From positions 62,001 to 126,000 of the forward strand of contig JAJFIA010000019.1 of the NCBI GenBank assembly GCA_021775255.1: DNA of 64,000 nt, in the 5' to 3' direction. Source of the DNA: Roseovarius sp. GTDB taxonomy: Bacteria > Pseudomonadota > Alphaproteobacteria > Rhodobacterales > Rhodobacteraceae. The notes beneath the pieces were generated by a model. The model did no database searches. It was not told where the DNA came from and saw nothing but the letters and a program-made list of their open reading frames with translations. The position numbers and the translations under genes were made by a program. Shown here piece by piece: positions 31,325-50,917 of the stretch; position 1 is the first letter of the stretch, and every line of letters begins with the position of its first letter.

Positions 31325-31338
31325 TTGATACCTATCAA
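31325..31338. promoter_or_regulatory. Fnr box 1, TTGAT-N4-ATCAA
   Basis: TTGATACCTATCAA is a perfect inverted repeat matching the Fnr/FnrL consensus. It lies 63 bp before the first micro-protein of the bd-like gene set and 516 bp from the fnr start. It predicts low-oxygen activation of the island. Confidence 0.85.
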
Positions 31339-31401
31339 TTACACGATACCGCAAATGTGGTCGCCTCAAAGCTTCAATCATCGCGTCGCAGCGGGAAAGT
31401 T

Positions 31402-31524
31402 ATGCAGCAAAAGAAACAAAATACGGGTTTGGGCAAGCTGGTCTTTGCCGCAACAGCGGTGGCGATGGTGTATTTCTTCTGGTGGCTACTGATTTTTGAT
31501 CATGGCGTAATCTCAATTCATTAA
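31402..31524 (+). CDS. Micro-membrane protein 1 (40 aa)
   Basis: ATG to TAA gives 40 residues: a short polar start (MQQKKQNTG), one hydrophobic helix (LVFAATAVAMVYFFWWLLIF) and a tail DHGVISIH. Size and layout resemble accessory peptides of terminal oxidases (CydX, CcoQ). It is 63 bp after Fnr box 1 and is followed within 22 bp by a second micro-protein. Called from position and topology, not from homology. Confidence 0.6.
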   Translation: MQQKKQNTGLGKLVFAATAVAMVYFFWWLLIFDHGVISIH

Positions 31525-31546
31525 TCTGCCGGAGGGGGCCCGTAAA

Positions 31547-31675
31547 ATGATGGCGCGCAAATATCTGGTTTTCGTACTGGCGCTGGTTATATGGGCCGGG
31601 GTTTTCTATTTCATCGACAAATCAATCATGCAGGCGCAGGGCCTGCCGGTTGGCGCGGATATGATGCCGATATGA
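31547..31675 (+). CDS. Micro-membrane protein 2 (42 aa)
   Basis: ATG to TGA gives 42 residues with one hydrophobic helix (YLVFVLALVIWAGVFYF) and a short polar tail. GGAGG at 31530-31534 lies 12 bp before the ATG. The stop overlaps the start of the bd-like subunit gene (ATGA), so the two are translationally coupled. This suggests a small subunit or assembly factor of that protein. Confidence 0.62.
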   Translation: MMARKYLVFVLALVIWAGVFYFIDKSIMQAQGLPVGADMMPI

Positions 31676-33417
31676 AATATTTCATCGCCGCCCTTCTGGC
31701 CCTTCTCGCCGTTTCCCTGCCTGATCTGGTTGCCGCCGCAAGTGATGCCCTTCCCCCTGACGCAGCGCCCCAGCCCTCGCGGCTGGATTATCCGGTGATT
31801 GCCGGCATCTCGGCGCGCAGTTTGGCGTGGTCGATGGCGCAGATGCATCTGTTTCTGGCCGCCTTCGTGTTGGCGGTGCCGCTTTTCTCCATCGCCACCG
31901 AATTCATGGGTGTTGTCACCGGCGATGACCGGTTTGATACCATGGCGCGCGAATTCATGAAAATCACCATGGCCGCCTATTCGCTGACGGCTCTGGTCGG
32001 CGGCGGTCTGTTGCTGACACTTTTGGTGTTTTATCCGCATCTGATGGGCTATTTGGTCAAGGTATTCCGCGGTCAGATGCTGATTTACGCCCTGCTGTTT
32101 GGCCTCGAATCGATCACGCTCTATCTCTATTTCTATTCCTGGGATGCGCTCCGGCGTGGCAACCGCAAATATTATCACATGTCAATCGGTCTGGTGCTCA
32201 ATACCGTCGGCCTCACCCTGATGTTCGTGGCCAATGCCTGGGTCAGCTTCATGATGTCGCCTGCGGGCATCGCGCCGGATGGTGCCATCACCGGCACCGT
32301 GTGGGAGGCCACCCGCAACCCCTTGTGGAACCCGTTGAACCTGCACCGGTTTCTGGCCAATATCGCCTATGGCGGGGCGATTGTCGGGGGCTATGCCGCT
32401 TATATGTTTCTGGCGGAAAAAGATCCGGTGCAGAAGGCGCATTACGACTGGATGGGCTATACTTCCAACTTCATCGCCATTCTGGGGTTTCTGCCGCTGC
32501 CCTTCGCCGGTTACTGGCTGATGGCCGAAATATACGCCTATTCCCAGCAGATGGGCATCACCGCCATGGGCGGCATTCTGGCCTGGCTTTTCATCATTCA
32601 GGCGGTGCTGATCGGCACCATCATGCTGGCGGCGAATTATTACCTGTGGTCGGGCCTGATGCGCACCGATCGCGGCGCGCAATATGGCAGATACGTGAAA
32701 TATATCGCCGTGGTGATCGTTGGCGGCTTTCTTGTCTGGGTCACGCCGCACACCCTGATCCTGACCACGTCCGAGATCCAAAATCTTGGCGGCACACATC
32801 ACAAAATCCTTGGGCCTTTGGGCATCATGCCGGCCAAGAATACCGCCGTGAACCTGATGCTGGTGTTTACATTCCTGTCGTTTCAGATGTTTTACCGCTC
32901 ATCGCGCGAACCGGTGGTGCCCTGGGCCAAATCCGCCAATATGGTGGTGGTGGCGCTTTATGTGGTCGGCATTGCCAACATCATCGGCGCCGGCATTTAC
33001 GGCTATATCACGCCAACGGTTTACAAGGTCGGTGCCTCGGTGCCGCAGGTGGTGACCACTCTCACCATCATCATCGGATCGGTGATCATTGATGTCTTCA
33101 TGCTGCGCGGTGCCAAATCCGAGAAGGTGCATTGGGGCCGCATGACCGAACGCTCGCAATACGCACTCTTCGTGTTGCCGGTGGCGTTTACATGGCTGAT
33201 GGGGCTGATGGGCTATATCCGCTCATCCTTGCGCACCAACTGGCATGTCTACACCGTGATGAAGGATAACAGCCCCGAAAATTACATTCCCACGCTGGGC
33301 GACGCGGGCAATACAATCACCGGTATTACCCTCGCGTTCATGGCGGTGATGGTATTTGTGTTCTGGCTGTCGCGCCTTGGCCAGACCAGGCAAAAAAATG
33401 CGGAGATATCCGCATGA
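31672..33417 (+). CDS. Cytochrome bd-like oxidase subunit I (CydA-like)
   Basis: A 581-residue protein with an N-terminal signal-like segment and about 13 hydrophobic helices. Features aligning with CydA: His59 in AQMHLFL (CydA His19, haem ligand), Glu146 in GLESITL (Glu107), FVANAW (ILVANGW), and His225 in NLHRFLANIAYGG (His186). The quinol-oxidation Q-loop motif (GRQPW) is absent and no CydB follows, so it is not a normal quinol oxidase. The next genes encode c-type cytochromes, suggesting exchange of electrons with cytochrome c. Start overlaps micro-protein 2 (ATGA). Confidence 0.75.
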   Translation: MKYFIAALLALLAVSLPDLVAAASDALPPDAAPQPSRLDYPVIAGISARSLAWSMAQMHLFLAAFVLAVPLFSIATEFMGVVTGDDRFDTMAREFMKITMAAYSLTALVGGGLLLTLLVFYPHLMGYLVKVFRGQMLIYALLFGLESITLYLYFYSWDALRRGNRKYYHMSIGLVLNTVGLTLMFVANAWVSFMMSPAGIAPDGAITGTVWEATRNPLWNPLNLHRFLANIAYGGAIVGGYAAYMFLAEKDPVQKAHYDWMGYTSNFIAILGFLPLPFAGYWLMAEIYAYSQQMGITAMGGILAWLFIIQAVLIGTIMLAANYYLWSGLMRTDRGAQYGRYVKYIAVVIVGGFLVWVTPHTLILTTSEIQNLGGTHHKILGPLGIMPAKNTAVNLMLVFTFLSFQMFYRSSREPVVPWAKSANMVVVALYVVGIANIIGAGIYGYITPTVYKVGASVPQVVTTLTIIIGSVIIDVFMLRGAKSEKVHWGRMTERSQYALFVLPVAFTWLMGLMGYIRSSLRTNWHVYTVMKDNSPENYIPTLGDAGNTITGITLAFMAVMVFVFWLSRLGQTRQKNAEISA

Positions 33418-34550
33418 CATTTCTGCGGGTCATCGGCTTCAGCCTTGCCCTGCTGGGGTTTTATGCGCTTTACGCCCATACGCTGCCGCAGGTCGAGCCG
33501 GACCTGTCCGAGCCTGAGATACTCGCAACCGAAGGCCTGGACATGCCCGGCATGATCGCCCTTGGTGAAGGGCTTTTTACCGGCAAGGGCACCTGTACGC
33601 TTTGTCATAACGGCATGGGCCGCGCCCCGGATACGCTGGCGATGGATCTTGCTGTCACCTTCCCCGAACGCCTTTTGGATGCGAATTATTCCGGCGTTGC
33701 CGCAGGTGGTGACGGGGCGCAAGCCGTTGAAAGTTACATCCGCGAATCCATGCTGGAGCCTTCCGCCTTTGTGGTTCCGGGTTTTGGCAAGAAGGGCACA
33801 AATGATGCGGTAAGCCCGATGCCGGTGGTTGATGCGCCCCCGATCGAGCTGGCCCCGGTTGAGATAAACGCCGTTATCGCCTTTCTGCAGGATCGCGCCG
33901 GCCTCACGCCCACCGTGGCTTTGCCTTCTGCGGCTGACACTCCCGAAGCGGACGCGCCCGCGGCCGATGAGGGCCTGGTTGAGGCCCCGGTCACGGATGC
34001 GCAATCCGCGCTTGATAAATTCTCCTGCGCCGCCTGCCATGATCTTGAGGGCAGCGGTGCCGATCTTGGCCCCGCTCTGGGCGGTATCAGCATGCGCATG
34101 AGCCGCGCCGGGCTGATGGAGGCCATACTTGATCCAAACGCCGAGATTGCAACCGGCTTTGATGCGGGCCTGATGCCCGACACATTCGGCGAAGATATGC
34201 ACGCCAGTGAACTTTTGCTGATCGTTGATTACCTGATGGCCCTGCCTGCGCCCAGGCCCTCTGATACACCCGAGGATGAAGGCCCTGCCAGTGATGCGAT
34301 TGACGTGATTGATGCCTATGGCTGCGCCGGTTGCCACGATCTTGAGGATAGCGGCGCCGATCTCGGCCCGGCGCTAAATGGCATTTCCGCCCGCATGGAC
34401 CGCGAGCAGTTGATAACAGCCATCACCAATCCCAATGCAACTATCGCCGACGGTTTTGAGGCCGATATGATGCCCGACACCTTTGGCGACGATATCAGCG
34501 ATGCCGAGATGATCCTGCTCCTCGATTACCTGATGAAACTGCCGGAATAG
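33414..34550 (+). CDS. Tri-haem c-type cytochrome, membrane anchored
   Basis: A 378-residue periplasmic cytochrome with an N-terminal anchor (VIGFSLALLGFYALYA) and three haem c sites: CTLCH (61-65), CAACH (205-209) and CAGCH (304-308). The second and third domains are a tandem duplication, sharing GADLGPAL, the arrangement around AIL/ITNPNA and MPDTFG, in which Met is the likely sixth haem ligand. They are joined by Pro/Ala/Asp-rich linkers. Start overlaps the bd-like gene (ATGA), placing it in the same complex or chain. Confidence 0.9.
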   Translation: MTFLRVIGFSLALLGFYALYAHTLPQVEPDLSEPEILATEGLDMPGMIALGEGLFTGKGTCTLCHNGMGRAPDTLAMDLAVTFPERLLDANYSGVAAGGDGAQAVESYIRESMLEPSAFVVPGFGKKGTNDAVSPMPVVDAPPIELAPVEINAVIAFLQDRAGLTPTVALPSAADTPEADAPAADEGLVEAPVTDAQSALDKFSCAACHDLEGSGADLGPALGGISMRMSRAGLMEAILDPNAEIATGFDAGLMPDTFGEDMHASELLLIVDYLMALPAPRPSDTPEDEGPASDAIDVIDAYGCAGCHDLEDSGADLGPALNGISARMDREQLITAITNPNATIADGFEADMMPDTFGDDISDAEMILLLDYLMKLPE

Positions 34551-34559
34551 GGGAAGAAC

Positions 34560-36830
34560 ATGCGCTTTTTGAAACATCCCCTGACCCTGGCAATTCTGGT
34601 TCTTGCAGGCCTTTATGTATCGTTTGCCTATATCCTCAACCCGCCGCTGCCCGCCTCGGTTCTGATCACTTACATGAGCATCTGTAGCATTGGCGTGCTG
34701 CTTGTCGTCACCTTTGACAACAAAACCGCCACGCGGTTTTTCGCGCCGCTTCTGTCGCTGTTCGAATCGCCAGAACGCAAGGCCCTGCGCGCCGTTGCTT
34801 TCGCCTGCGTTGTCGCCGGTGCGGGGGCTTTGGCTTACAGCAATGCAAAGCCCGCCATTGTCTCACCGGTTGAGCTGCGCACGGTGCATCCTGCGCCACC
34901 TTCCTCGCTGAAGGCCTACGGCAAAAGCTATAATCTGCTGACGCTGGAAAATCCGTATCGCGCCGGGCTTGATGAAAATTCCGATGAATACCGCGGGATC
35001 GTCGCCGAAGGGGCCGGGCTGTATTATGAAAACTGCGTCTATTGCCATGGCGATCTGCTGGATGGCAAAGGCCATTTTGCCGATGCCTTCACCCCCCGCC
35101 CGATCAATTTTCAGGATGTCGGCACCATCGCACAACTGCAAGAGGCGTTCCTTTTCTGGCGCATCACCAAAGGCGGCCCCGGCCTGCCGGTTGAGGGCAC
35201 GCCGTGGTCCTCGGCCATGCCGGTGTGGGAAGAGATGCTGAAGGAAGATGAGGTCTGGAAGATCATCTCGTTCCTATATGATTACACCGGGTTCGAGCCG
35301 CGCTCATGGGAGCTTGAGGAAACGGAAAGCACCACTGAAACAGCGGAAACCACGACCCAAGGCGACCTTGATGAAGACGCGGTAGATGCGATTTACATGA
35401 AACGCTGCGCGCAATGCCACGGCGAGGAGGGCGATGGCCTGGGCATCGCGGCCGAGCGCATGTACCCCGCCCCGCGCGATTTCACCCTTGGCCTGTTCAA
35501 ATATAAAACCACCGATTCCAATAGTGAATTCCCGTCCGACGCCGATCTGGCTGCGACTATCCGCAACGGCCTGCCGGGCACCGCCATGCCGGGCTGGAAA
35601 ACCATCCTTACCGATGCTGAAATTGACGCGCTGATCTACAAGATCAAAGCGTTCGGATTTTGGGAGGAGGAAACGGCCGAAGATCTGGGCCTCACCCCGA
35701 TTGATCCGGGCGCGCCGCCTGAGGTCACCGGGGCATTGCTGGCCACTGGCCGCACACAGTTTGAAAAGGCCTGTGTGCAATGCCATGGTGAGGCTGGCCG
35801 TGGCAATATCACCTCGGGCAAGCGGCTCAGGGACGACTGGGAAAACCGCATCTGGCCGCGCAATCTCACCCGGCCTGAAACCTGGCGCTGGACGTTCGAC
35901 GCAAGGGGCGTGTTCCAGCGCCTGACAGCGGGTATTCCCTCAACCCCAATGCCCGAGCACGCCACCAATATAAGCCTTGAGGATCGCTGGGCCATCGCCA
36001 GTTACGTGATGACATTGCGCGAGACGGCCACGCCGCTCAGCAAAGGCGATAGCGTCATTCGCGCGGTGCGGGTTGCGGGCGATCTGCCCAGCGTGGCCGA
36101 TGATCCCGCGTGGGATGCCGCCCCGGCGATGACCTTCCGGTTCAGCCCCAACATCATAAAACAGCCGCGCCTGTTTACGTCGCTCAATGATATGGTGACG
36201 GTGCGGGCGCTTTATAATGACAGCGATATTGCCCTCCGGGTTGATGTCGATGACCGCACCTATTCGGTGCCCGGCTCGGAACTGGAACAGCAATATGCAC
36301 TCGACGGGGTGACGGCCACGCGCGATGCGATTGCCATACAGCTACCGGCGGCACTATCAGGCACGGCGGAAAAGCCCTATTTCCGTCAGGGTGATCGCCG
36401 CAATCCGGTGAACATGTGGTATTGGCAGGCCCCCTCGCAAGACCCGGAACTGCCCGCCACGATCGAGATTTGGGATGCCAATGGGCAGGAGCACGCGCCA
36501 ATCCCGCGCCCCGACAGTACCAGCCTTGCGGCCAATGGCGCGTGGCAGGATGGCCGCTGGCAGGTGGTGTTTTCCCGCGCGCTTGAAACCGGTGCGCCTG
36601 AGGATCTGCAATTCTCCGAAGGGGTCTATACCCCCATCGCATTTGCCAACTGGGATGGGCTTAACGGCGAGTCAGGCCTGCGCCAAAGCTTTACCTCTTG
36701 GTACTGGATATTGCTCGAACCCGAGGACAATCCGACAAGAGTAATGGGGTTGACCATATTGGCCGCGCTCATCGCGGCAATTGCCTTTATCGCCATCGCC
36801 CGGCGCGCCCGCAGGCGGCTCGCGGCCTGA
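34560..36830 (+). CDS. Membrane tri-haem cytochrome c fused to ethylbenzene-dehydrogenase-like haem domain
   Basis: A 756-residue protein. Three hydrophobic helices lie in the first 95 residues; three cytochrome c domains follow with CVYCH (159-163), CAQCH (283-287) and CVQCH (405-409), each with a later Met ligand (SSAMPVW, GTAMPGW, STPMPEH). Residues about 495-720 resemble the haem b-binding gamma subunit of ethylbenzene dehydrogenase/DMSO-reductase relatives (RAVRVAGDLPSVADDPAWD). One C-terminal helix ends in a basic tail. It could carry electrons from a membrane donor to the periplasmic molybdoenzyme or peroxidases. Confidence 0.85.
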   Translation: MRFLKHPLTLAILVLAGLYVSFAYILNPPLPASVLITYMSICSIGVLLVVTFDNKTATRFFAPLLSLFESPERKALRAVAFACVVAGAGALAYSNAKPAIVSPVELRTVHPAPPSSLKAYGKSYNLLTLENPYRAGLDENSDEYRGIVAEGAGLYYENCVYCHGDLLDGKGHFADAFTPRPINFQDVGTIAQLQEAFLFWRITKGGPGLPVEGTPWSSAMPVWEEMLKEDEVWKIISFLYDYTGFEPRSWELEETESTTETAETTTQGDLDEDAVDAIYMKRCAQCHGEEGDGLGIAAERMYPAPRDFTLGLFKYKTTDSNSEFPSDADLAATIRNGLPGTAMPGWKTILTDAEIDALIYKIKAFGFWEEETAEDLGLTPIDPGAPPEVTGALLATGRTQFEKACVQCHGEAGRGNITSGKRLRDDWENRIWPRNLTRPETWRWTFDARGVFQRLTAGIPSTPMPEHATNISLEDRWAIASYVMTLRETATPLSKGDSVIRAVRVAGDLPSVADDPAWDAAPAMTFRFSPNIIKQPRLFTSLNDMVTVRALYNDSDIALRVDVDDRTYSVPGSELEQQYALDGVTATRDAIAIQLPAALSGTAEKPYFRQGDRRNPVNMWYWQAPSQDPELPATIEIWDANGQEHAPIPRPDSTSLAANGAWQDGRWQVVFSRALETGAPEDLQFSEGVYTPIAFANWDGLNGESGLRQSFTSWYWILLEPEDNPTRVMGLTILAALIAAIAFIAIARRARRRLAA

Positions 36831-36862
36831 AAAGATGTGAAATTTTGTTAAATTACTGAATC

Positions 36863-36971: not shown

Positions 36972-38090
36972 ATGCCGATATCTCGATCCAAACGCAGGCT
37001 TGCGCGGACGCTGGGCGCCTCACTGATGAGCGCCACCCTGCTGGCCGGGGCCGCTTTCGCCGGCGAGGCTCTGGGGCCGATTGTGCCGCCGGAAGTGGAT
37101 GCGGCCAAGGCCAAACTTGGCCAGCGCCTGTTTTTTGACCAGCGCCTGTCGGGTGATGCCGCACTTTCATGTGCCAGTTGCCACCAGCCGGAAAACGGTT
37201 TTGCCGACGGGATGCCGCTCTCACTGGCCTATCCCGGCTCCAAGGGGTTTCGCAACACGCCAACCCTGATCAACACGGCGCTTGCCGCCAACTGGTTTCA
37301 TGACGGGCGATTGGGCACCAATCTCAATGACGTGACCCGCGAAATGATCACCGAAGATTACCTGATGAACATGGATATGCGCCTGATGCAGGAGCGCGTC
37401 AAACAGGATCCGCTCTATGTGGAAATGTTTGCCGCCGCCGGATACGGCGAGCCGTCCAATGGCTCGATCCGCAACGCGATCCCGGAATATCTGGCAACGC
37501 TCACGTCACGCGGGGCGCCGTTTGATGAAGGCTCCATGTCTGAGTCTGCCACCCGGGGTCAGGCCTTGTTTGAAGGCAAGGCAGGTTGTGTCAGTTGCCA
37601 TAGCGGCCCGCGCCTGACCGATGATCAGGCCTATAATATCGGCACGCCGGAAAACCCCGATATCTGGTCGGATCCGATGCGTCACATGACCTATACGGCC
37701 TTTGCATCCTTCATGGGGGTTGAAAACTACATGAATATCCGCCGCGATGTGGGCGCGCAGATCATCCGGCACCCGGCGGATGGCTCGGATGTGGGCAGTT
37801 TCAACACACCCACCCTGCGCGAGCTGACCTATACCGCGCCTTACATGCATAACGGCATGCTGGCTTCGCTGGAGGATGTGGTGGCGTTCTATAACGCCGG
37901 CGGTGGCGATGATGCCAACAAAGACGCCCGTATCAAACCGCTTGGCCTCACAGATGCCGAGCAGGCCGATATCGTGGCCTTCCTCAAGGCGCTTTCCGGC
38001 GATCCGCTGACCGGCCCTGAATTTGTCTGGCCCGATCCGATTTCAACCAATTATCCCGCCATCGAAAACTGGCGCGATGTACAGAACTAG
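36972..38090 (+). CDS. Di-haem cytochrome c peroxidase family protein (IdrP-type), first copy
   Basis: A 372-residue exported protein (signal peptide about residues 1-30, ending AFA). It has two haem c sites, CASCH (67-71) and CVSCH (206-210), and the family segments LFFDQRLSGD, GFRNTPTLIN, WFHDGR and YTAPYMHNGM. The MauG/CcpA family reduces peroxides. Two such genes beside an AioA-family enzyme are the hallmark of iodate reductase loci (IdrP1, IdrP2), where they are thought to remove reactive iodine species or peroxide. AAGGGG precedes the ATG. Confidence 0.9.
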   Translation: MPISRSKRRLARTLGASLMSATLLAGAAFAGEALGPIVPPEVDAAKAKLGQRLFFDQRLSGDAALSCASCHQPENGFADGMPLSLAYPGSKGFRNTPTLINTALAANWFHDGRLGTNLNDVTREMITEDYLMNMDMRLMQERVKQDPLYVEMFAAAGYGEPSNGSIRNAIPEYLATLTSRGAPFDEGSMSESATRGQALFEGKAGCVSCHSGPRLTDDQAYNIGTPENPDIWSDPMRHMTYTAFASFMGVENYMNIRRDVGAQIIRHPADGSDVGSFNTPTLRELTYTAPYMHNGMLASLEDVVAFYNAGGGDDANKDARIKPLGLTDAEQADIVAFLKALSGDPLTGPEFVWPDPISTNYPAIENWRDVQN

Positions 38091-38105
38091 GACGGGAGAA
38101 GAAAG

Positions 38106-39248: not shown

Positions 39249-39268
39249 GCCCAAGGAAAGGACTGAAA

Positions 39269-39850
39269 ATGTCACAAGACATGAACACCAAGCCCACCAT
39301 GACCCGCAAGCAAGCGGCCAAAGCTGTGGGGCATAAATGCCTGGTCTCACGGCGCAATTTCCTGATCGGGGCGGGGGTGACCACCACCATCATGATCACG
39401 CTTGACCCCGGCACGCCGCAGGCGCAGCAGGTTCCGGCACAGATCACCGAATATCCGCGCAAGTTCATCACCAAACTATCCAGTCTGAAACAGGATGAAC
39501 CGTTTGATTTCAGCTATCCCGATGAGGGCGAATATTCTGACAACATGATTGTCAAAATGGGCGCTCAGGGCGGCGGCGGCATCGGCCCTGACAAAGATGT
39601 CGTGGCCTTCAACTATGCCTGCACCCATCAGGGCGGCAGCCTGTTTGACAGCTACAAGGCAGATACCAAATCCATGGGGGCCTGCCCGCTGCACCTGTCG
39701 ACTTACGATCTGACACGCCACGGCATTCTGATCTCGGGGCAAGCTTACCAAAGCCTGCCGCAGATCCTGCTGGAGCTTGAGGGTGACGATATCTACGCCA
39801 CCGGAATTTTCGGGCTGATCTACGGCCGCAAAAACAACCTGCAAGGTTAG
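39269..39850 (+). CDS. idrB: Rieske [2Fe-2S] subunit, arsenite oxidase / iodate reductase small subunit family
   Basis: A 193-residue protein with a twin-arginine signal (VSRRNFLIGAG near residue 28) that carries the folded complex to the periplasm. Cluster ligands are in CTHQGG and CPLHLSTYDL. The extra two cysteines that form a disulfide in many Rieske proteins are Gly and Leu here. It directly precedes the molybdopterin subunit (12 bp), giving the order small then large. The iodate reductase assignment depends on the neighbouring di-haem peroxidases; AioB is the alternative. Confidence 0.72.
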   Translation: MSQDMNTKPTMTRKQAAKAVGHKCLVSRRNFLIGAGVTTTIMITLDPGTPQAQQVPAQITEYPRKFITKLSSLKQDEPFDFSYPDEGEYSDNMIVKMGAQGGGGIGPDKDVVAFNYACTHQGGSLFDSYKADTKSMGACPLHLSTYDLTRHGILISGQAYQSLPQILLELEGDDIYATGIFGLIYGRKNNLQG

Positions 39851-39862
39851 GAGAGGAAGACC

Positions 39863-42699: not shown

Positions 42700-44883
42700 A
42701 TGAAAACCAAAGTAACACAACAGCTTAGCGCCCTCTTGAAAGACGGAATCGACGTTCACCGCTGCGCCGCCGCGCGCGCGCTTGGGGTGCTGCGCGGGCC
42801 GCAGGCCATTGCAGGGCTGACCCAGGCATTGCTTGATGAAGACCCGGATGTGCGCAGCGATGCGGCCAGTGCCTTGGCTGAAATCAAAGCCCCTGAAACT
42901 GCTGAAAGACTGATGGATAATCTGATCGGTGATCCCGAGGCGGATGTCAAAAAAGCGGCAATCACCGCATTGGTGGCGATGCGTCACGCGCCGGTCGTGC
43001 CGCTGTTGCGGGCGCTGGTAGTGTCGCGCGCCAGCGATCAGATTGCCTGGGATGAAGATGCATTTTATCAAAATGGCTGGGACAGTTGGGACGATATCCA
43101 GATCCTTGCGATCAAAAGCCTTGGTGCCTTTGCTGCCGAAGAGGCGGTCACCGATATTCTTGAGGCCATGAGTGATGAGCAAGGCCAGGACATCAGCGAA
43201 CCCGCCTTTGAAGCTCTGGCGAAAATGGGGAAGGACGGCGCCAAAGCACTGGCGCAGATTTACACGCTTGATGACCCCCGTCTCGGCCGCCGCCTTGCCC
43301 GTGCGGCCGGAAATTCCGACAATCCGCATCTTGAGGCGCTGCATGCCGGGATGCTGAATGACAAATCGCCCATGATCCGCGCGCTGGCGCTTGCAAGCCT
43401 TGCCCCAGCCGATACCCGCCTTGCGCGGCTGTTCAATGATCCCGATGCAGGCGTGCGCGCCGCCGCGGTGCGCCATCACGGCGGGGCACATCTGCCCGGT
43501 CTGCGCGGCATGATCAAGGATCCATCCCCCGAGGTGCGCGTTGAAGTGTTCAAACTCATCGCTGAGCACCCCGGTGAATTCCGCGAAAAACCCCTGATCG
43601 AGGCGATCAAAAGCACCCTCAAGGGCGATCCTGAAGCGGCCAAACATGCCGCCCTTGCGCTTTTTGCCTTGAAAGGCCCGAAGGTTGCCAAAGGCTTTAC
43701 CCATGTGCTGGACAAAGCCGATATTCCGCGTGAATTTCGCATCGGCATTCTGGAAACCCTTGAAAAAGCAGGCGATATTGCCGTGCCCGCGTTGCTGGGT
43801 GTCGCCGCTGATCCTGATCGGCAGTTGCGCCTTGCCAGCCTCACGGCGCTGGCAAACATTGCCGCCGCTGATCCGGTCTGGCCAAATGATGCGGGCCTTG
43901 GTCTGCTGACGGCGCTCAAGGGTGAGCTGATCCTGCCGCCCGATGGGCCGGAGGAAGAACAGGTTGACCCCGAACCGGCATTCGAGCCGGATCAGGCCGA
44001 ACTGGAAGAGATTGCGCTTGAAATCGACGAATCCCTGCCGCTGATCGCCGAGGATGCCGCCCCGGGATCAACCCTGCGCGCGATCATGACCAATGAACCG
44101 GAAGCGGCCACATCCGAACCTGAGGAGATCAGGCTTGATGCCACACAAGAGCGCCTGTTGCAGGCCACGAACACCCGAAAATTCGCCAAACGCAAAATCT
44201 CGTGGCAGACCGAGGTGGCGCCCTATCTGGATGTGCGCCGCTTTTCCGCCCGGCTTTTGGGGCAGGTGGTGCATAGAGATGTCACTGCGGCGCTGATCGC
44301 GGCACTGGCCGATGCGCCTGATTCTGAAACACAGGAGGCGGTGCTGTTTTCCCTGGCAGAACATGGTGCCAGAACCGGGCCTCTGCCTGCGTGCCTGCTT
44401 GATCGGCTACGCACATTTCTGGGCCATGAAAGCTCGGATATCCGCGTGCTGGCGACGCGGCTTCTGGGCTTTTTGCCTGATGGTGACATTGAGCAACTGG
44501 CCGAACTCACGCGCCATCAGGATCAGCTTGTCCGGGCCGAAGCCATCCGCGCACTGGATCAGCGGGGCGTGGCGCATCGGGCGCTTTATGATGCCCTGAA
44601 GGATGATTATCCCGGCGCGGGCATTGCCGCCGCGCGCGCGCTGGCGCGCCTGAGCGGCGATGATGCGGTGGCTGATCTGGTGGAATTTGCAACAAGAAAT
44701 GACGGCACCTATCGCCGCGACATCGGCAATCTGTTGGGGCAATACGCGCCCGTCACGGGGACCGCCCGTTTGCTTGATCTGTTGCGTGATGAGACCCGAA
44801 AATCCGAATGGCTGGTGGCGATCGACGCGCTGGCCGAGCTTTTCCAACATCAGGCCCCGGAGCAGGATCTGCTGGTCGCCTGA
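42700..44883 (+). CDS. HEAT/PBS-lyase repeat protein
   Basis: A 727-residue cytoplasmic-looking protein built of about 30-residue helical repeats, for example DPDVRSDAASALAEIKAPE near residue 48 and similar units through residue 395 and again after 500. A Pro/Glu-rich acidic linker (about 405-480) separates two solenoids. Such scaffolds bind other proteins; in respiratory loci they may aid assembly or maturation. No signal peptide is seen. It follows idrA after two hairpins and precedes the cupredoxin-like gene by 25 bp. Confidence 0.85.
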   Translation: MKTKVTQQLSALLKDGIDVHRCAAARALGVLRGPQAIAGLTQALLDEDPDVRSDAASALAEIKAPETAERLMDNLIGDPEADVKKAAITALVAMRHAPVVPLLRALVVSRASDQIAWDEDAFYQNGWDSWDDIQILAIKSLGAFAAEEAVTDILEAMSDEQGQDISEPAFEALAKMGKDGAKALAQIYTLDDPRLGRRLARAAGNSDNPHLEALHAGMLNDKSPMIRALALASLAPADTRLARLFNDPDAGVRAAAVRHHGGAHLPGLRGMIKDPSPEVRVEVFKLIAEHPGEFREKPLIEAIKSTLKGDPEAAKHAALALFALKGPKVAKGFTHVLDKADIPREFRIGILETLEKAGDIAVPALLGVAADPDRQLRLASLTALANIAAADPVWPNDAGLGLLTALKGELILPPDGPEEEQVDPEPAFEPDQAELEEIALEIDESLPLIAEDAAPGSTLRAIMTNEPEAATSEPEEIRLDATQERLLQATNTRKFAKRKISWQTEVAPYLDVRRFSARLLGQVVHRDVTAALIAALADAPDSETQEAVLFSLAEHGARTGPLPACLLDRLRTFLGHESSDIRVLATRLLGFLPDGDIEQLAELTRHQDQLVRAEAIRALDQRGVAHRALYDALKDDYPGAGIAAARALARLSGDDAVADLVEFATRNDGTYRRDIGNLLGQYAPVTGTARLLDLLRDETRKSEWLVAIDALAELFQHQAPEQDLLVA

Positions 44884-44908: not shown

Positions 44909-45649
44909 ATGACAAAATTCTTCTCAACCTCCGCAATGGCCCTAGCCCTTTTGGGATTGGCCACAGCGGTCAGTGCCAAAGGCTACAAGGAAATCGACGT
45001 GGCGGATGGCGGCAGCTTTACCGGCACCGTTGCCGCCGGCGGAGCCGAGGCCGATACCCGCAGCTATACGATCTCGAAGGATCCCCAGATTTGCGGCGAG
45101 GGATCGCGCGAAGTGCCATTTGTCGAGGTCAACGGTGATGGTATGCTGATGAATGCGGTGGTTTTTCTCAGTGAGGTTGATGAAGGCAAGGCGTTTGACC
45201 CTGAAAGGATCAACCTGACCCTTGATCAGAAAAACTGTGAATTTTCCACCTATCTGGGCGTGATGGCCAACAATGGCGAGTTGACGGCGATAAACTCCGA
45301 CATGACCCTGCACAATATCCACACCTATGAGCTAATCGGCAAGGCGCGGCGCACGGTGATGAATGTCTCGCAGCCCAACGCGGGCGACAGCGTGACCAAA
45401 GCCGTGAAGCTGCGCAAAGGCAACGGTATGAAGGTGGAATGTGACGCCCATGATTTCATGCACAGCTTCGTTTTTGTCGCCAAGAACCCCTATTATGCGG
45501 TGGTCGATGAGGCCGGTGGCTTTGCGATCGACGGTATTCCCGCAGGCACCTATGAGGTGATGATCTGGCACGGCTTTCTTGGCGAGGTTGAGATTGGTGA
45601 AATCACCGTCGATGCCGGTGGCACGGTGAATATGGATCTGAGTTACTAG
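44909..45649 (+). CDS. Exported cupredoxin-like protein with carboxypeptidase-regulatory-like end
   Basis: A 246-residue periplasmic protein with a signal peptide (MALALLGLATAVSA). The likely copper ligands are a His in LHNIHTYE and the group C-x2-H-x2-M in ECDAHDFM, the plastocyanin-like arrangement seen in methylamine-utilisation-type proteins. The C-terminal part (YYAVVDEAGGFAIDGIPAGTYEV) is a small beta-sandwich of the carboxypeptidase-regulatory type. It could be a soluble electron carrier for the island. AAGGAAA precedes the ATG. Confidence 0.78.
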   Translation: MTKFFSTSAMALALLGLATAVSAKGYKEIDVADGGSFTGTVAAGGAEADTRSYTISKDPQICGEGSREVPFVEVNGDGMLMNAVVFLSEVDEGKAFDPERINLTLDQKNCEFSTYLGVMANNGELTAINSDMTLHNIHTYELIGKARRTVMNVSQPNAGDSVTKAVKLRKGNGMKVECDAHDFMHSFVFVAKNPYYAVVDEAGGFAIDGIPAGTYEVMIWHGFLGEVEIGEITVDAGGTVNMDLSY

Positions 45650-45671
45650 GTTATCAACAGGAGCGCCTGCA

Positions 45672-45779
45672 ATGATAAAACGCCGTAAGATCAATACGTT
45701 TGATGCGTTTGTTCTGGCGGGCGCTCTGGTTAATGTGGCGGTGGTGCTGCTGCTGGTGGGGTATTGGTTATTCGCCTGA
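45672..45779 (+). CDS. Micro-membrane protein 3 (35 aa)
   Basis: ATG to TGA gives 35 residues: basic start MIKRRKINTF, then one hydrophobic helix (AFVLAGALVNVAVVLLLVGY). AGGAG lies 9 bp before the ATG. Its end overlaps the start of the next gene by 16 bp, supporting translation as a coupled pair. Function unknown; it is the third single-helix peptide in the island. Confidence 0.6.
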   Translation: MIKRRKINTFDAFVLAGALVNVAVVLLLVGYWLFA

Positions 45780-46621
45780 GCCGCAAAACCCTGGCGCTGG
45801 CCATGGCCTGCGCCTGTGCCGCATCCCTTGGCTGGGCGGCGCAGGTTTTCTGGCCCTCGGCCCCGCGCGGGATGGTGGCCGTTCCTGCCGGCCCGGCGGT
45901 TTTGGGCTATGTGTATCACACCGGGCTTTATGGCCCGATGCCTTATGAGGTGGCCGCGTTTCATATCGACCGGTTTGAGGTGACCAATGCTGATTACGCT
46001 GAATTTGCAAGCGCCACGGGCCACGAATCTGCGGCTTTCGCGGATGACCCCGAGTTCAATCAGCCCGATCAGCCGGTAACCGGGGTATTGCATGGTGATG
46101 CGCGTGCCTATTGTGCCTGGGCGGGCAAGCGCCTGCCCACGGAAATCGAATGGGAAAAGGCCGCGCGCGGCCCTGACGGGCAGAAATATCCCTGGGGGAA
46201 TGCGCCTGATCCATCCCGCGCCCATCTTGCTGGCAAGGCTCCGGTTTCGGTCAACAGCTACCCGGATGATATCAGCCCCTACGGCGTGCGTGGCCTGGCG
46301 GGCAATGTCTCGGAATGGGTGGCGGATACCCGCACCGCCCGCGCAGGGGTTTGCCGTGACAACGCGGTGCTTGACCGCAAGGCGACACCGGAAATGCGCG
46401 CCCTGATTGCCGAGCTGACAGCGGCCAATGGCGGCGTTTTGCCTGAGCTGTGCATTCCGCCCGACGAGGCCGATCAAAGCATCCCCGGCGAGCCCTGTGC
46501 CTATATCAAGGGCAATAGCTGGAACGGGCGCGCCCATATGACTGTCGCGAGCAACAGAATGTGGGATTATACAGATACATACGCAGAGTTTACCGGCTTT
46601 CGCTGCGCAAAGGATGGGTGA
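45764..46621 (+). CDS. Formylglycine-generating-enzyme-like (SUMF1/FGE-sulfatase) protein
   Basis: About 285 residues: an N-terminal hydrophobic helix, then one FGE-type domain (about residues 42-285) with MVAVPAGPAVLGY, FHIDRFEVTNADYAEF, RAYCAWAGKRLPTEIEWEKAARG, YPWGN, GLAGNVSEWVAD and a final TGFRCAKDG. Family members oxidise Cys or Ser, or act as non-enzymatic partners in respiratory loci. A TTG start at 45764 fits the hydrophobic N-terminus; a later ATG is at 45803. The domain faces the periplasm if the helix is an anchor. Confidence 0.83.
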   Translation: MVIRLSRKTLALAMACACAASLGWAAQVFWPSAPRGMVAVPAGPAVLGYVYHTGLYGPMPYEVAAFHIDRFEVTNADYAEFASATGHESAAFADDPEFNQPDQPVTGVLHGDARAYCAWAGKRLPTEIEWEKAARGPDGQKYPWGNAPDPSRAHLAGKAPVSVNSYPDDISPYGVRGLAGNVSEWVADTRTARAGVCRDNAVLDRKATPEMRALIAELTAANGGVLPELCIPPDEADQSIPGEPCAYIKGNSWNGRAHMTVASNRMWDYTDTYAEFTGFRCAKDG

Positions 46622-46626
46622 GGAAA

Positions 46627-48264
46627 ATGGTGGTTAATCTGGCAATAGACCAAGACATTGACGGCAAATCCGGCACTGCTCCGGCGGCGATGGGGCGCAT
46701 ATTGGTGGCGCTCGATCAGTCGGATTATGCCAATAACGCCATGCGGCAGGCCCTGCGCCTTTGCACGGGACATGTCACCGGCATTCACGCCTATGCCGCC
46801 AGGCTGCATGACCGCCGTTTCAAACAGATGGAAGGCGGATTGCCCGAGCGGTATCAACGCGAAAGCGAGATGGAGCATCAGCGCGAGGTGCATGAGGATC
46901 TGATCGGCATGGGGCTTGGCCTGATCTCGGACAGCTATCACGATGCGGCTGAAATGCAGGCGAAAAAGGCGGGCATTCCGTTTCACCGGCTCTCGCCCGA
47001 GGGCAAGAATTATACCTGCCTGCTTGAGGCGATGAGCACGCGCGAACATGATATCTTGTTCATCGGAGCACTTGGCCTTGGTGCGGTTGCCGGATCAACC
47101 ATCGGTACGGTCTGCGAGCGCGTGGCGCGCCGCGCATGCATCGACGTTTTCATCGCCAAAGACCGGCGTCTGGCCATTGGTGACGGGCCGATTGTGGTTG
47201 GCATGGATGGCTCGCCCAAATCCTTTGGTGCGCTGGTAACAGCGTTTGAAATTGCCGGCAAACTGGATGCTGAGGTGCATGTGGTTGCGGCCTACGATCC
47301 CTATTATCACTATGTTGCCTTCAACAAGATTTCGACCGTTCTGGACGAAGAGGCGGGCAAGGTTTTCCGCTTCAAGGAACAGGAGCAACTGCATGAAGAG
47401 CTGATTGATGACGGCATCGCCAGGATTTATCAGGCGCATCTCAATGTGGCCGAGACCGTGGCCAAAGAGGCGGGTGTCGAGATCAAAACCAGCCTTCTTG
47501 CGGGCAAGCCCTATCAGGCGATCCGCAAATATGTGGATGAGGCGGGTGCCAGCCTTCTGATGCTGGGCAAGACAGGCGTGCATGCCGATGCGGGGCTTGA
47601 TATCGGCGGCAATACCGAGAATCTTCTGCGCATGGTGCCCTGCCATGTCTGGATTGGCATGGCCGAACATTTCCCGGCTGCCGATGTGATCGCCAACGAG
47701 ACCATCATGTGGTCGGATGAGGCGAATGAGATGATAGGCCGCGCGCCCGAATTTGTCCGGGGCATTGCCCGCACCGGGGTGATCCGTCAGGCGCAAAAAC
47801 AGGGGCATACTTTCATCACCACAAAATTTGTGTCTGAAGTCATGTCGAAAATGATGCCCGGTGGCAGCGGTGGCGACCCCGCGCAGGCGTTTGAACGGCT
47901 TGAATGGGCTGAAGATGCCCGCGCCATGCTGGAGAGCATAACCGACGAACAACTGCGCGAAAACATCGGCCTCCGGGCCGAGAAATCCGCCCGTCGCGAT
48001 GCGGTGGACCGGGTTGAGATCGCCCATATCGTGCCCTTTATGGCCGAGGCCGCACTTGAGCCTGCCAGCGCTGAAATCACCTGGCGCGCCGCCCCTCTGG
48101 CGCGGCTGCAACGGGTGCCCGAGGCATTCCGCGGACAGGTCAAAACCGCGATTGAGCGTTTCGCGCGCGACCGTGGCCTTGCAGAGGTTGGCCCCGAGAT
48201 CGAGGATGAGGCCTTTGCCGCCTCGCGCATGGCGATGTGCCCGGTCGAGCCGGGAAAAGAATAA
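46627..48264 (+). CDS. Universal stress protein pair fused to PCP_red-like domains
   Basis: A 545-residue cytoplasmic protein. Two UspA-like domains come first (MGRILVALDQSDYANNAM from about 22; GPIVVGMDGSPKSFGALV from about 187), each a nucleotide-binding fold; the second keeps a recognisable LMLGKTGVHAD. The C-terminal 170 residues contain repeats resembling PCP_red, the C-terminal domain of protochlorophyllide reductase BchB: WSDEANEMIGRAPEFVRG and WRAAPLARLQRVPEAFRG. The stop overlaps the radical SAM start by one base. It may handle a tetrapyrrole. Confidence 0.78.
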   Translation: MVVNLAIDQDIDGKSGTAPAAMGRILVALDQSDYANNAMRQALRLCTGHVTGIHAYAARLHDRRFKQMEGGLPERYQRESEMEHQREVHEDLIGMGLGLISDSYHDAAEMQAKKAGIPFHRLSPEGKNYTCLLEAMSTREHDILFIGALGLGAVAGSTIGTVCERVARRACIDVFIAKDRRLAIGDGPIVVGMDGSPKSFGALVTAFEIAGKLDAEVHVVAAYDPYYHYVAFNKISTVLDEEAGKVFRFKEQEQLHEELIDDGIARIYQAHLNVAETVAKEAGVEIKTSLLAGKPYQAIRKYVDEAGASLLMLGKTGVHADAGLDIGGNTENLLRMVPCHVWIGMAEHFPAADVIANETIMWSDEANEMIGRAPEFVRGIARTGVIRQAQKQGHTFITTKFVSEVMSKMMPGGSGGDPAQAFERLEWAEDARAMLESITDEQLRENIGLRAEKSARRDAVDRVEIAHIVPFMAEAALEPASAEITWRAAPLARLQRVPEAFRGQVKTAIERFARDRGLAEVGPEIEDEAFAASRMAMCPVEPGKE

Positions 48265-49547
48265 TGCCCAAGATCAAGGCAGACGCCCCCTATCTTGTGG
48301 CGCTGAATCTCACTGAGCGGTGCAATCTGGCTTGCGCCCATTGTTATCTGGATGCGCGCCACCTGCGCGAAGGCGGCAAGGATGAATTGTCCACCACCGA
48401 CATCAAGCGTGTGCTGGGCGAGATTGCCAGGGCTGGCCCCGAGGCGATGGTGGTTCTGACCGGCGGCGAGCCGACATTGCGGCCTGACTTGCCTGAGATT
48501 GCGGCACATGCCAGCGGTCTGGGCCTGATGGTTGTGGTGGGCAGCAACGGCATGTCTTTGACAGCTCAGCGGGTGAAAACCCTGCAACAATCCGGCGTTG
48601 CCGGCATCGGCATTTCAGTGGATTCCCTGACACCTGAAACCCATGATGAATTTCGCGGATTGAAAGGCGCATGGGCGCGGACGATGGCCGGGATTGACGC
48701 CTGCAAAGATGCCGGAATGCCGTTCCAGATCCATTTCTCGGCCACCGATGAAACCGCCGATGAGATTGACGATATGGTTGATTTCGCCCGCAATGCCGGT
48801 GCAATCGTGTTGAATGTCTTCTTCATGGTCTGCACCGGCAGGGGCGAAAAATATACCGGCATTTCAGCAGAAAAATATGATCGGGTTCTGCGCAGGGTGG
48901 CCCATGCAGCCAGGGCAGAGACCCGCCTGATGGTGCGCGCCAAATGCGCACCGCATTTCAAGCGTATCGCCATTGAGATGGACCCGAATTGGCCCATAAC
49001 TGCCGCCCACGGCTATGATGCTGGCGGTTGCATCGCAGGCACCCGCTATGCAAGGATTACCCCGCAAGGTGATGTAACCCCTTGCCCTTACATGGAAAAT
49101 TCGGCAGGTTCGGTGCTGGAGCAATCGTTTGAGGAAATCTGGCACGAAGCCCCGGTGCTCAATGCCCTGCGCGCACCCAAACTTGAGGGGCGGTGCGGCG
49201 CCTGTGAATTTCAAAAGCTTTGCGGCGGCTGTCGTGCGCGGCCGTTGGCGGCCAGCGGCAACATGATGGGCGAAGATGCGCTTTGCACCTATCAGCCTCA
49301 GGGCGGTGCGGTGATCACCCCGATGCTGCCTGCCGCACCGGCGATGAAATGGGCCCATGAAGCCGAGGCGCATCTTGCCCGTGTTCCCGGTTTCATACGC
49401 CGGATGGTGCGCCGCCGGGCCGAGGATCATGTGCGCTCCGAGGGGCGCGCGCTGGTGACCAAAGCCGATCTTACCTTGCTGGCCAAACGCCGCTTTGGCG
49501 ATGCGGGTCTGCCGGATTTTCTGCGCAATATTCAAGGGCAGAAATGA
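48264..49547 (+). CDS. Radical SAM/SPASM protein, NirJ/AhbD-like, with C-terminal PCP_red domain
   Basis: A 427-residue enzyme. The radical SAM cluster motif is C20-x3-C24-x2-C27 (CNLACAHC), followed by VVLTGGEPTLRPDL. The C-terminal auxiliary cluster region has CGACEFQKLCGGCRAR, as in NirJ (haem d1 synthesis) and AhbD (haem synthesis from coprohaem). The last 80 residues add a PCP_red-like domain (KWAHEAEAHLARVPGFIRR). It overlaps its neighbours on both sides. A tetrapyrrole side-chain modification is inferred. Confidence 0.85.
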   Translation: MPKIKADAPYLVALNLTERCNLACAHCYLDARHLREGGKDELSTTDIKRVLGEIARAGPEAMVVLTGGEPTLRPDLPEIAAHASGLGLMVVVGSNGMSLTAQRVKTLQQSGVAGIGISVDSLTPETHDEFRGLKGAWARTMAGIDACKDAGMPFQIHFSATDETADEIDDMVDFARNAGAIVLNVFFMVCTGRGEKYTGISAEKYDRVLRRVAHAARAETRLMVRAKCAPHFKRIAIEMDPNWPITAAHGYDAGGCIAGTRYARITPQGDVTPCPYMENSAGSVLEQSFEEIWHEAPVLNALRAPKLEGRCGACEFQKLCGGCRARPLAASGNMMGEDALCTYQPQGGAVITPMLPAAPAMKWAHEAEAHLARVPGFIRRMVRRRAEDHVRSEGRALVTKADLTLLAKRRFGDAGLPDFLRNIQGQK

Positions 49548-50917
49548 TGCTGGATGCGCTGATCATCGGCGGCGGCATTTCCGGGCTGGCAACAGCCCAC
49601 AACCTGATGCAGCGCGGGCTGAATGTGCAGGTTCTGGAACGTCAGGCGCGCCCCGGCGGCAATGCCATATCCCAGCGCATGGGCGGCTTCCTGATGGAGC
49701 ACGGGCCAACCACGTTCAACGCCTCGGTGCCCGGCGCATGTGAGCAGCTTGACATCCTTGGCCTGCGTGAAAGCGCATCCGATCTTGGCCCCGGAGTCAG
49801 GCGGCGCTACCTGCGCGATCAGGGGCGGCTTACCGGCATTTCCGCGCATCCCGCCGGGTTTTTCCTGTCAAATTACCTGTCGCCGCGCGCGCGCATTTCC
49901 TTGCTGTTCGAGGCCCTGCGCCCGCGCCGCAAGGATGGCCCGGAGGAAAGCATCCACGCCTTTGTCAGCCGCCGTTTTGGCCGTGAGTTTGCCGATAAGG
50001 TGATCGAGCCGCTGGCGGCGGGCCTTTTCATGGGGGATGCCAAAAACCTCTCGATCACCGCGGCCTTTCCCCGGCTGGCCAGTATGGAGCGCGAACATGG
50101 GTCAATCATCCGGGGCGTTCTCAATGCCCGCAGGGGCAATCAGCCGGGACGGCATCTTTATTCCTGGCGTGATGGCATCGGCACCATCCCCGCCACATTG
50201 GCACTGAGGCTGGGGGAGCGGATAAAAACCGGCGTGAGCGTGCTTGAAATAACCCCCCTGGCGCAGGGTTTTACGGTCAGGACCAATGCCGGAAGCATTC
50301 GATCCCGCGCCGTTGTGCTGGCGGTGCAGCCGCATGTCGCCGCCGGGTTGCTGGAGCAGTCTGATCCCGAGGCGGCATTGGCCGCAGGCGCGATCACAGC
50401 GCCACCGGTCAATGTGCTGTTCTTCGGATTCCGGCGCGAACAGGTGGCGCACCCGCTTGACGGGCTGGGGTATTTATCCACCAAAGACAGCAGCAGGATC
50501 ATTTCGGGCGCGCAGTTCCTGTCAACCATGTATGAGGGCCGTGCCCCCTCTGGCCATGTGGCCATTTCGGCCTATGCCGGCGGCACCCGCAACCCCGAAC
50601 TTGCACAACTTGATGAGGCCCTGTTACAGCGCGAAGTGCGCCGTGAGCTGGCTGAAACCCTGGGCATAAAAGGCAAGCCGGTTTTGCAGCGCAGCCGCCG
50701 CTGGGCCCTTGGCCTGCCGCAATACACGCCTGGGCATGCGGCCCGGACCAGCATATTGGAAAGCGCCGCCCAGCGCGTGCCCGGCCTTTATATAACAGGC
50801 AATTATCTGCAAGGTGTCTCGGTTGCCAACTGCCTGATCGCCGCGGATGAAACTGCGGCGCGCGTGGCAACGGCTCTGCCCGGTCTGACCACTATCAAAA
50901 CCGAAAAAGCCGGCTGA
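49544..50917 (+). CDS. Protoporphyrinogen/coproporphyrinogen oxidase (HemG/HemY-like)
   Basis: A 457-residue FAD enzyme. The dinucleotide-binding loop is GGGISGLATA at the N-terminus, followed by VLERQARPGGNA and GGFLMEHGPTTF. Later segments are EPLAAGLFMGDAKNLS and, at the end, GLYITGNYLQGVSVANCLI, the family's C-terminal FAD motif. It removes six electrons from a porphyrinogen. It overlaps the radical SAM gene by 4 bp (ATGA), so these two form a haem-making pair dedicated to the island; most relatives of this host rely on other oxidases such as HemJ. Confidence 0.88.
   Translation: MMLDALIIGGGISGLATAHNLMQRGLNVQVLERQARPGGNAISQRMGGFLMEHGPTTFNASVPGACEQLDILGLRESASDLGPGVRRRYLRDQGRLTGISAHPAGFFLSNYLSPRARISLLFEALRPRRKDGPEESIHAFVSRRFGREFADKVIEPLAAGLFMGDAKNLSITAAFPRLASMEREHGSIIRGVLNARRGNQPGRHLYSWRDGIGTIPATLALRLGERIKTGVSVLEITPLAQGFTVRTNAGSIRSRAVVLAVQPHVAAGLLEQSDPEAALAAGAITAPPVNVLFFGFRREQVAHPLDGLGYLSTKDSSRIISGAQFLSTMYEGRAPSGHVAISAYAGGTRNPELAQLDEALLQREVRRELAETLGIKGKPVLQRSRRWALGLPQYTPGHAARTSILESAAQRVPGLYITGNYLQGVSVANCLIAADETAARVATALPGLTTIKTEKAG

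Follow-up and report, generated by a model that had tools for sequence, protein, structure and literature searches.

The window examined here, a stretch of 64,000 nucleotides of Roseovarius sp. DNA (G000:C11:62001-126000, from a 3.40-Mb genome that is 99.7% complete), carries a run of 15 plus-strand genes, from a first micro-protein gene (31402) through a HemY-type gene (end 50917), in which an iodate-reductase-like (Idr) unit lies within a membrane module built around a cytochrome-bd-like (bd-like) protein. Our comparisons best support a composition in which a portable bd-like module, equipped with maturation genes of its own, has repeatedly been joined to Idr. The observed gene set is more than chance, because the same set recurs in other genomes. 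An initial annotation had described the run as about 16 same-strand genes, many of them overlapping by ATGA, and had proposed that they may form one Idr-like system. The parts it named were all found in place and domain models support most of its labels; the same-strand run also stands, but the genes number 15, and three of the 14 junctions are 4-base ATGA overlaps (mp2-bd, bd-cytochrome and radical SAM-HemY). The other notable junctions are a one-base overlap and three gaps of 114-158 bases, so that the island genes could possibly be read as more than one transcript.

The separation of the two units comes from counts in two genome samples, one of 289 genomes from the class and one of 398 from the phylum, which have in common at least G000 and three further members of its family; these counts include related genomes, so the p-values overstate independence, and gaps in draft genomes blur absences. 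In the class sample, IdrA gave 12 matches at E 1e-60, 11 of them above 50% identity, while the twelfth (G233) is AioA-like at 32%. The protein joining Usp and PCP_red domains (Usp-PCP_red) occurs in 9 class genomes and bd-like in 10, and all 9 are within the 10 (9/9 against a background of 10/289, Fisher p 3e-16). IdrA and bd-like share seven genomes (7/10 of those with bd-like, Fisher p 1e-9). Four of the 11 genomes with IdrA are without the module and three of the 10 with bd-like are without IdrA, which contradicts the earlier view of a single Idr system. Because Idr and the module each occur without the other, the tailoring genes are seen to follow bd-like and not Idr; this is shown for Usp-PCP_red, and the radical SAM and HemY genes adjoin it in most loci examined. 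In the phylum sample, bd-like is present in 4/398 genomes, the same four that have strong Usp-PCP_red matches, and two others (G386 and G442) have only weaker Usp-PCP_red matches, to longer proteins. In all, five genomes hold bd-like without IdrA (G044, G053, G079, G317 and G529). Molybdoenzyme stretches of only 26-27% identity occur in the first four and none in G529; completeness is 96% for G079, 87% for G053 and 78% for G529.

The same association is seen from the Idr side. The named idrA loci are the best 80 among 538 confirmed relatives, down to a listed identity of 75%, and whole-genome searches covered 49 genomes, from 50 of these 80 loci; going by their titles, they are mostly metagenome-assembled Alphaproteobacteria. 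Usp-PCP_red is present in 36 of them, bd-like in 37, both in 33 and neither in 9 (Fisher p 6e-5), the last including Pseudovibrio flavus, Roseibium album and Ruegeria atlantica. The outcome that would have refuted the initial annotation, an Idr core never accompanied by the other genes, did not occur: 33 of the 49 idrA genomes have both. Among the 37 bd-like-bearing genomes, 15 have one protein of at least 69% identity, 17 have a two-protein set and five have one of the two or fragments.

The gene orders show how the units are joined. In the window, the Idr genes, together with those for a HEAT-repeat protein, a secreted protein and an FGE-sulfatase-like protein, are placed between the EB_dh cytochrome and Usp-PCP_red. 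In G079 and G053, where no IdrA was detected, the module is contiguous and on one strand, in the order bd-like, di-haem c, mono-haem c, EB_dh cytochrome, Usp-PCP_red, radical SAM and HemY. Usp-PCP_red is found in 13 of the 80 named idrA loci. When only loci that have Usp-PCP_red and a bd-like match of at least 60% are counted, five show the nested order with both ends (L034, L041, L042, L049 and L082); L043, L048 and L053 fall outside this count and are counter-examples. Another five (L035, L040, L044, L057 and L081) begin at a contig or stretch edge before bd-like, and their visible part agrees with nesting. By their ARRANGEMENTS, the 80 idrA loci form three broad groups: group A has the window-like order; in group B, a second, ~720-aa bd-like protein comes after Idr-HEAT, together with paralogous cytochromes, and the first module stands behind these where contigs reach (for example G281); and group C has Idr and HEAT in a locus without bd-like (Ruegeria, Roseibium and Pseudovibrio). 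A further neighbour of the module was seen in G529, where a same-strand run that includes the bd-like module begins with a gene for a clade III lactonase-type nitrous-oxide reductase (L162, G529:C83, 14854-16632; NF052460 753 bits against a cut-off of 700); this genome gave no IdrA match.

Table 1. Features of the island and of its upstream region (positions in the window)
Feature	Position	Strand	Support
Crp/Fnr-type regulator, divergent	30054..30809	-	HTH_Crp_2 60.9 bits; FnrL 73.3 bits (cut-off 300, below)
Perfect FNR/FixK-type box TTGATACCTATCAA	31325..31338	.	77 bases 5' of mp1
mp1, 40-aa single-helix micro-protein	31402..31524	+	FFWWLLI core
mp2, 42-aa single-helix micro-protein	31547..31675	+	D..IM..QGL core
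Cytochrome-bd-like subunit I, 581 aa	31672..33417	+	Cyt_bd_oxida_I PF01654 54.3 bits (cut-off 26.2)
Tri-haem cytochrome c	33414..34550	+	three CxxCH; PF00034
Membrane-anchored tri-haem cytochrome c fused to EB_dh/NxrC-like b-haem domain	34560..36830	+	PF09459 73.4 bits
Di-haem peroxidase, first Idr peroxidase	36972..38090	+	CCP_MauG PF03150 129 bits
Di-haem peroxidase, second Idr peroxidase	38106..39248	+	CCP_MauG PF03150 136 bits
IdrB-like Rieske subunit	39269..39850	+	leader SRRNFLIG of twin-arginine translocation (TAT) type; arsenite_ox_S TIGR02694 114 bits (cut-off 95.65)
IdrA-like molybdopterin catalytic subunit	39863..42541	+	arsenite_ox_L TIGR02693 423.6 bits (cut-off 359.05)
HEAT-repeat protein adjoining idrA	42700..44883	+	PF13646 153 bits
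Secreted protein	44909..45649	+	cupredoxin-like only by eye (CDAHDFMH); no cupredoxin model match
FGE-sulfatase-like protein, variable member	45764..46621	+	PF03781 144 bits
Usp-Usp-PCP_red-PCP_red protein	46630..48264	+	PF00582 and PF08369
Radical SAM/SPASM protein, AhbD/NirJ2 kind, C-terminal PCP_red	48264..49547	+	TIGR04055 309, TIGR04545 299 bits
HemY-type protoporphyrinogen oxidase family protein	49544..50917	+	proto_IX_ox TIGR00562 240.3 bits (cut-off 97.85)

The structure model of the bd-like protein, built from 19 sequences (predicted local distance difference test, pLDDT, 75.8; predicted template modelling score, pTM, 0.78), has an N-terminal helix and then 14 long helices. Foldseek returned ten matches at E of 0.001 or below, every one a cytochrome bd chain, and VIA-align gave Z scores of 28-31 to ten cytochrome bd chains, the high-Z matches listed being bd and alternative complex III (ACIII) folds only. 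In a local profile alignment, H19, E107, H126 and H186 of the E. coli protein correspond to H59, E146, H169 and H225, invariant in 19/19 sequences; an alignment to canonical CydA beyond helix 6 was rejected as unreliable. The model predicts no Q-loop between helices 6 and 7, with helices 252-273 and 276-293 directly adjacent, the latter with moderate confidence only (block pLDDT 56-72). No CydB is present among the island genes (the rest of the genome was not searched for it), and no second CydA-like partner (CydA') was found, the genome having one bd-like protein and a canonical CydA; the ~720-aa second protein belongs to the group B arrangement.

The two micro-proteins, for which Pfam and NCBIfam gave no match, would be small subunits of the bd-like complex. 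In loci with bd-like at 60% or more, mp1 is present in 10/10 and mp2 in 9/10. Inspection by eye revealed small frames (FFWW or a variant; D..xM...QG[LI]) directly before bd-like in L145, L162 and L172, corresponding to genomes G079, G529 and G317, all without IdrA; micro-protein-like frames also precede bd-like in L150, L154 and L029, including type-B genomes, and an mp1-like one was seen in L019. None was seen by eye before bd-like in L147, L149 and L164, and in L152 the bd-like gene was cut by the stretch end. Both cytochromes of the module have three CxxCH motifs, in agreement with the tri-haem label given initially, and those relatives of the first cytochrome that were annotated have two haems. 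The second reaches TIGR03477 with 92.3 bits, under the cut-off of 169.85, and in other modules this EB_dh fusion is split into a mono-haem protein and a di-haem+EB_dh protein.

Usp-PCP_red, the radical SAM protein and HemY together point to tetrapyrrole modification, a reading that draws on family knowledge and inference. The PCP_red domain is named after a protochlorophyllide reductase subunit, and a BchB match was seen. By profile, the window proteins share membership of the AhbD/NirJ and HemY families; in contrast to AhbD, NirJ and NirJ2, the radical SAM protein carries PCP_red and scores well under the family cut-offs (299-309 against 500 for AhbD and NirJ2, 175 against 515 for NirJ), its nearest models being NirJ2 and haem b synthase. 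HemY is additional to HemJ, and the HemJ gene elsewhere in the genome led us to reject HemY as the sole protoporphyrinogen oxidase candidate; an apparent fusion of radical SAM and HemY in G079 was likewise rejected, the two being separate frames. We also rejected the idea that the tailoring genes serve Idr: the Idr genomes without bd-like (G059, G148, G176 and G184) are without Usp-PCP_red as well. The "own haem" that had been suggested for the whole system would fit the bd-like module rather than Idr, because the tailoring genes track bd-like (9/9 for Usp-PCP_red), and since Usp-PCP_red occurs with bd-like in all nine class genomes and in 33 of the 36 idrA genomes that carry it, the bd-like protein is the obvious candidate recipient of the modified tetrapyrrole.

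The Idr unit is likely an iodate reductase. The genes idrP1, idrP2, idrB and idrA are contiguous at 36972-42541 in the order P-P-B-A, which is the Idr order reported in passages of PMC10989891, and two peroxidase genes are present, whereas AioAB loci, in the portion of PMC8692401 consulted, have no adjacent cytochrome c peroxidases. In a tree whose references are IdrA-like, none experimentally proven, the window protein groups with alphaproteobacterial, Vibrio, Azonexus and Thiothrix IdrA-like proteins, and three AioA-like rows are set apart on a branch of 9.59 (100*); rows L062 and L075 represent the wrong open reading frame and sit on long branches. Its identity is 49.8% to the Azonexus and 48.7% to the Thiothrix plasmid IdrA-like protein, and 32-34% to AioA-like proteins; the Azonexus locus has the P-P-B-A order and the Thiothrix record ends at idrA. 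Of the AioA arsenite-site residues, which we take to be H195, E203, R419 and H423 (positions from 1g8k), H195, R419 and H423 are kept in the window as H197, R434 and H438. The fourth, E203, is replaced by S205, so the arsenite-site set of AioAB is incomplete, and this serine is invariant in 7/7 aligned IdrA rows.

The HEAT protein stands by idrA in 77/80 named loci; of the exceptions, L074 and L091 end at idrA, and L075 has neither HEAT nor Rieske match. In L075 (7182-12081), both peroxidases and idrA are present, with no Rieske match between them and no HEAT match, and in Vibrio L169 a HEAT match of 24.8 bits, under the Pfam cut-off of 27.7, lies upstream of Idr. The HEAT protein, unmentioned in the published Idr passages we consulted, may help to assemble Idr or serve as its scaffold. 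Homologues of the secreted protein adjoin Idr in many loci; no model confirms its cupredoxin label (Pfam reports only CarboxypepD_reg and fn3_3, NCBIfam nothing). The FGE-like gene was not found in 6/13 loci holding Usp-PCP_red.

Upstream of the first micro-protein, the Fnr link claimed initially is borne out by a divergent Crp/Fnr-type gene and a perfect box. This box, TTGATACCTATCAA, is the sole perfect TTGAT-N4-ATCAA within the 64 kb, where 0.12 are expected, and the regulator, as read from its translation, has six Cys (three close to the N-terminus) and an FNR-like E..SR helix. In four of 10 related mp1-bearing loci, a box with 0-1 mismatch stands 77-93 bases ahead of mp1; a box with no more than one mismatch occurs in 2% of random 200-base stretches from these loci.

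How the two units might work together can be proposed as follows. The first, comprising the two di-haem peroxidases, IdrB, IdrA and the HEAT protein, would be an Idr-type iodate reductase; the second would be a self-contained membrane redox module of micro-subunits, bd-like protein, c cytochromes, an NxrC-like b-haem cytochrome and three maturation genes. The maturation proteins would bind and modify a tetrapyrrole, giving a haem of the bd-like subunit. This subunit would draw its electrons from the cytochromes instead of quinol and would be a high-affinity reductase of O2 or a similar small molecule. The cytochromes would form a wire common to bd-like and IdrAB: under FNR-type control and falling O2, electrons would pass to O2 while it is present and then to iodate, and the bd-like complex, by removing the last O2, would protect an O2-sensitive Idr. 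In line with this, iodate reduction by R. azorensis requires low O2 and its Idr is thought to be O2-sensitive, according to passages of PMC11445184. The substrate, electron direction and haem of the bd-like module are all things we infer, and we hold only tentatively, as quite possible, that it is a bd-type reductase linked to cytochrome c, uses a modified tetrapyrrole and shares a periplasmic wire with Idr at low O2. It is favoured because the His and Glu residues are kept, the Q-loop is missing, cytochromes c are the partners, and the OR-N bd-like enzymes are thought, in passages of PMC10839748, to be cytochrome-c oxidases. A bolder version, in which Usp-PCP_red holds a tetrapyrrole that radical SAM and HemY would turn into an undescribed catalytic haem, the module and Idr then being one switchable cytochrome/O2/iodate chain, we regard as unlikely; if true, the oxidase end of such a chain would open even the iodide-oxidising direction.

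Several observations weigh against this picture, both in composition and in function. G044 has bd-like without Usp-PCP_red, and its contig stops after the cytochrome genes; among the 49 idrA genomes, three have Usp-PCP_red without bd-like and four the reverse, and in the three (L035, L044 and L081) the idr contig begins within or after the expected bd-like place. L043 and L053 have the EB_dh cytochrome behind HemY on the opposite strand; the HemY, radical SAM and Usp-PCP_red genes of L048 lie upstream of Idr and diverge from it; the module is beside Idr, not around it, in G305 (where it precedes the peroxidase genes) and G281; and in G317, Usp-PCP_red and radical SAM are on a different contig from bd-like. 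The varied placement of the units in L043, L048, L053 and G305 favours modularity and is a mild argument against an obligate single chain. The FNR box is weak in three of the 10 related loci, with two mismatches at best, and missing in three more, with none better than three mismatches nearby. As to function, the bd-like fold also resembles ACIII membrane subunits (three, Z 18-20, VIA-align), E99 of E. coli is not conserved and the counterparts of M393 and E445 are not placeable, and the host already holds canonical CydA and two COX1 proteins. Moreover, passages of PMC3578206 consider the bd-like proteins of nxr clusters, present also in the anaerobe Kuenenia, unlikely to act as canonical bd oxidases.

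The main and serious rival, which we judge somewhat unlikely, is that the bd-like complex oxidises membrane quinol and feeds IdrAB through the cytochromes, as alternative complex III would. A nested operon is simplest as one chain, the Denitromonas Idr locus is without a quinone oxidoreductase in the portion of PMC8692401 consulted, ACIII subunits are among the fold relatives of bd-like, passages of PMC3578206 suggest an ACIII-like role, in reverse direction, for the bd-like proteins of nxr clusters, should these bind quinone, and the nitrous-oxide reductase in line with the module in G529 would be a second periplasmic reductase and possible client. However, bd-like has no Q-loop, the equivalents of H19, E107, H126 and H186 are invariant, the module occurs by itself where no IdrA was detected, and Idr is without bd-like in G059, G148, G176, G184 and in 9/49 named genomes.

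That either unit occurs without the other is also what would be expected of mere neighbours: two respiratory units for low oxygen, independent of each other, that share a regulator but no electron path. The varying relative arrangement agrees with this, and so do the 141- and 158-base gaps that separate EB_dh cytochrome from peroxidase and idrA from HEAT. We think it improbable, given the nesting of one unit within the other in five named loci as well as the window, the paralogous set (~720-aa bd-like with its own cytochromes) downstream of Idr in another group, and the strong co-occurrence of bd-like and Idr. The chain might even run in reverse, with IdrAB oxidising iodide and the bd-like oxidase handing the electrons, received by way of the cytochromes, on to O2: in that direction it makes sense for an oxidase to be connected to a molybdoenzyme, and the accessory kit matches the nxr clusters, as described in passages of PMC3578206, in bd-like protein, mono-/di-haem c and NxrC-type subunit. 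Yet the characterised Idr is a reductase in the passages of PMC8692401 and PMC11445184 consulted. FNR-type control also suggests low O2. The iodide/hypoiodous acid step lies at about +0.8 V, which is very high for such cofactors, and we consider this reversal very improbable. The cytochrome-c-linked reductase stays our preferred, tentative reading.

Apart from the AhbD/NirJ and HemY families, the island shares features with three known systems and differs from each of them: (i) With the Idr clusters of Pseudomonas SCT, Denitromonas IR-12 and Roseovarius azorensis it has in common the four core genes, the TAT-type Rieske protein and the lack of an evident IdrA signal, but the window Idr is nested in a bd-like/cytochrome/tetrapyrrole module and has a HEAT gene by idrA; the published Idr description, in the passages of PMC8692401 consulted, covers core genes only, with poorly conserved surroundings. 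(ii) With the nxr/OR-N CydAA' proteins of Nitrospirota and Nitrospinota, going by their description in passages of PMC3578206, the module shares 14 helices, the missing Q-loop, mono-/di-haem c and an NxrC-type subunit, and its bd-like protein, having cytochrome c partners and no Q-loop, resembles the OR-N/nxr type. Compared with the nitrifiers by that description only, it differs in that NxrAB is absent and the genome encodes a single bd-like protein of this type, and it may differ in the attached micro-proteins and Usp-PCP_red/radical SAM/HemY genes. In Nitrospirales, the OR-N5 set lies immediately downstream of ACIII genes, as passages of PMC12342949 report. (iii) With canonical cytochrome bd quinol oxidase it shares the large-subunit fold (Z 28-31) and counterparts of H19 and H186, and differs in the absence of a Q-loop and of CydB in the island, in an identity of 12-18% over aligned residues and in its cytochrome c partners.

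The pairing of Idr with a bd-like module was not found described in the open-access literature searched, subscription papers being mostly outside it, and within that scope the recurring pairing is new. Among the matches listed, the open-access iodate literature leaves radical SAM, cytochrome bd and HEAT repeat unmentioned; open-access full texts gave no co-mention of iodate reduction with cytochrome bd or of CydAA' with cytochrome c and radical SAM, a single text, a review of the DMSO reductase family, has both iodate and radical SAM, and no open-access description combines as many as three of PCP_red, radical SAM, Usp, bd-like and protoporphyrinogen oxidase. Iodide in the sea is considered to come in part from iodate reduced by microbes. 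The locus names a candidate partner that may wire Idr into respiration, bd-like being present in 37 of the 49 idrA genomes searched, and for gene surveys this means that idrA alone does not reveal the accompanying electron-transfer set. The uncharacterised bd-like group gains a minimal gene set with putative micro-subunits and probable haem-tailoring genes, by which the cofactor and electron donor of bd-like proteins become directly testable.

We rejected a compositional island, the window having a guanine-plus-cytosine content of 53-62% without a clear step, and a plasmid-borne module, Usp-PCP_red and bd-like having no match in the plasmid collection. In L182 (4705-5943), ~5 kb beyond the window end, an open reading frame resembles a tyrosine recombinase by eye; with the tRNA-Ala gene at 29720 of the window, it may mark a mobile stretch. 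A PAS hybrid histidine kinase gene (50925-53213) is convergent with the island, and a 65% relative on the minus strand behind HemY in L035 suggests that this may be a linked sensor. Finally, a protein (L179, G317:C6, 3132-4670) with a MamI-like stretch (49 bits, below the cut-off of 80) is encoded near the bd-like module of G317, whose host may be magnetotactic.

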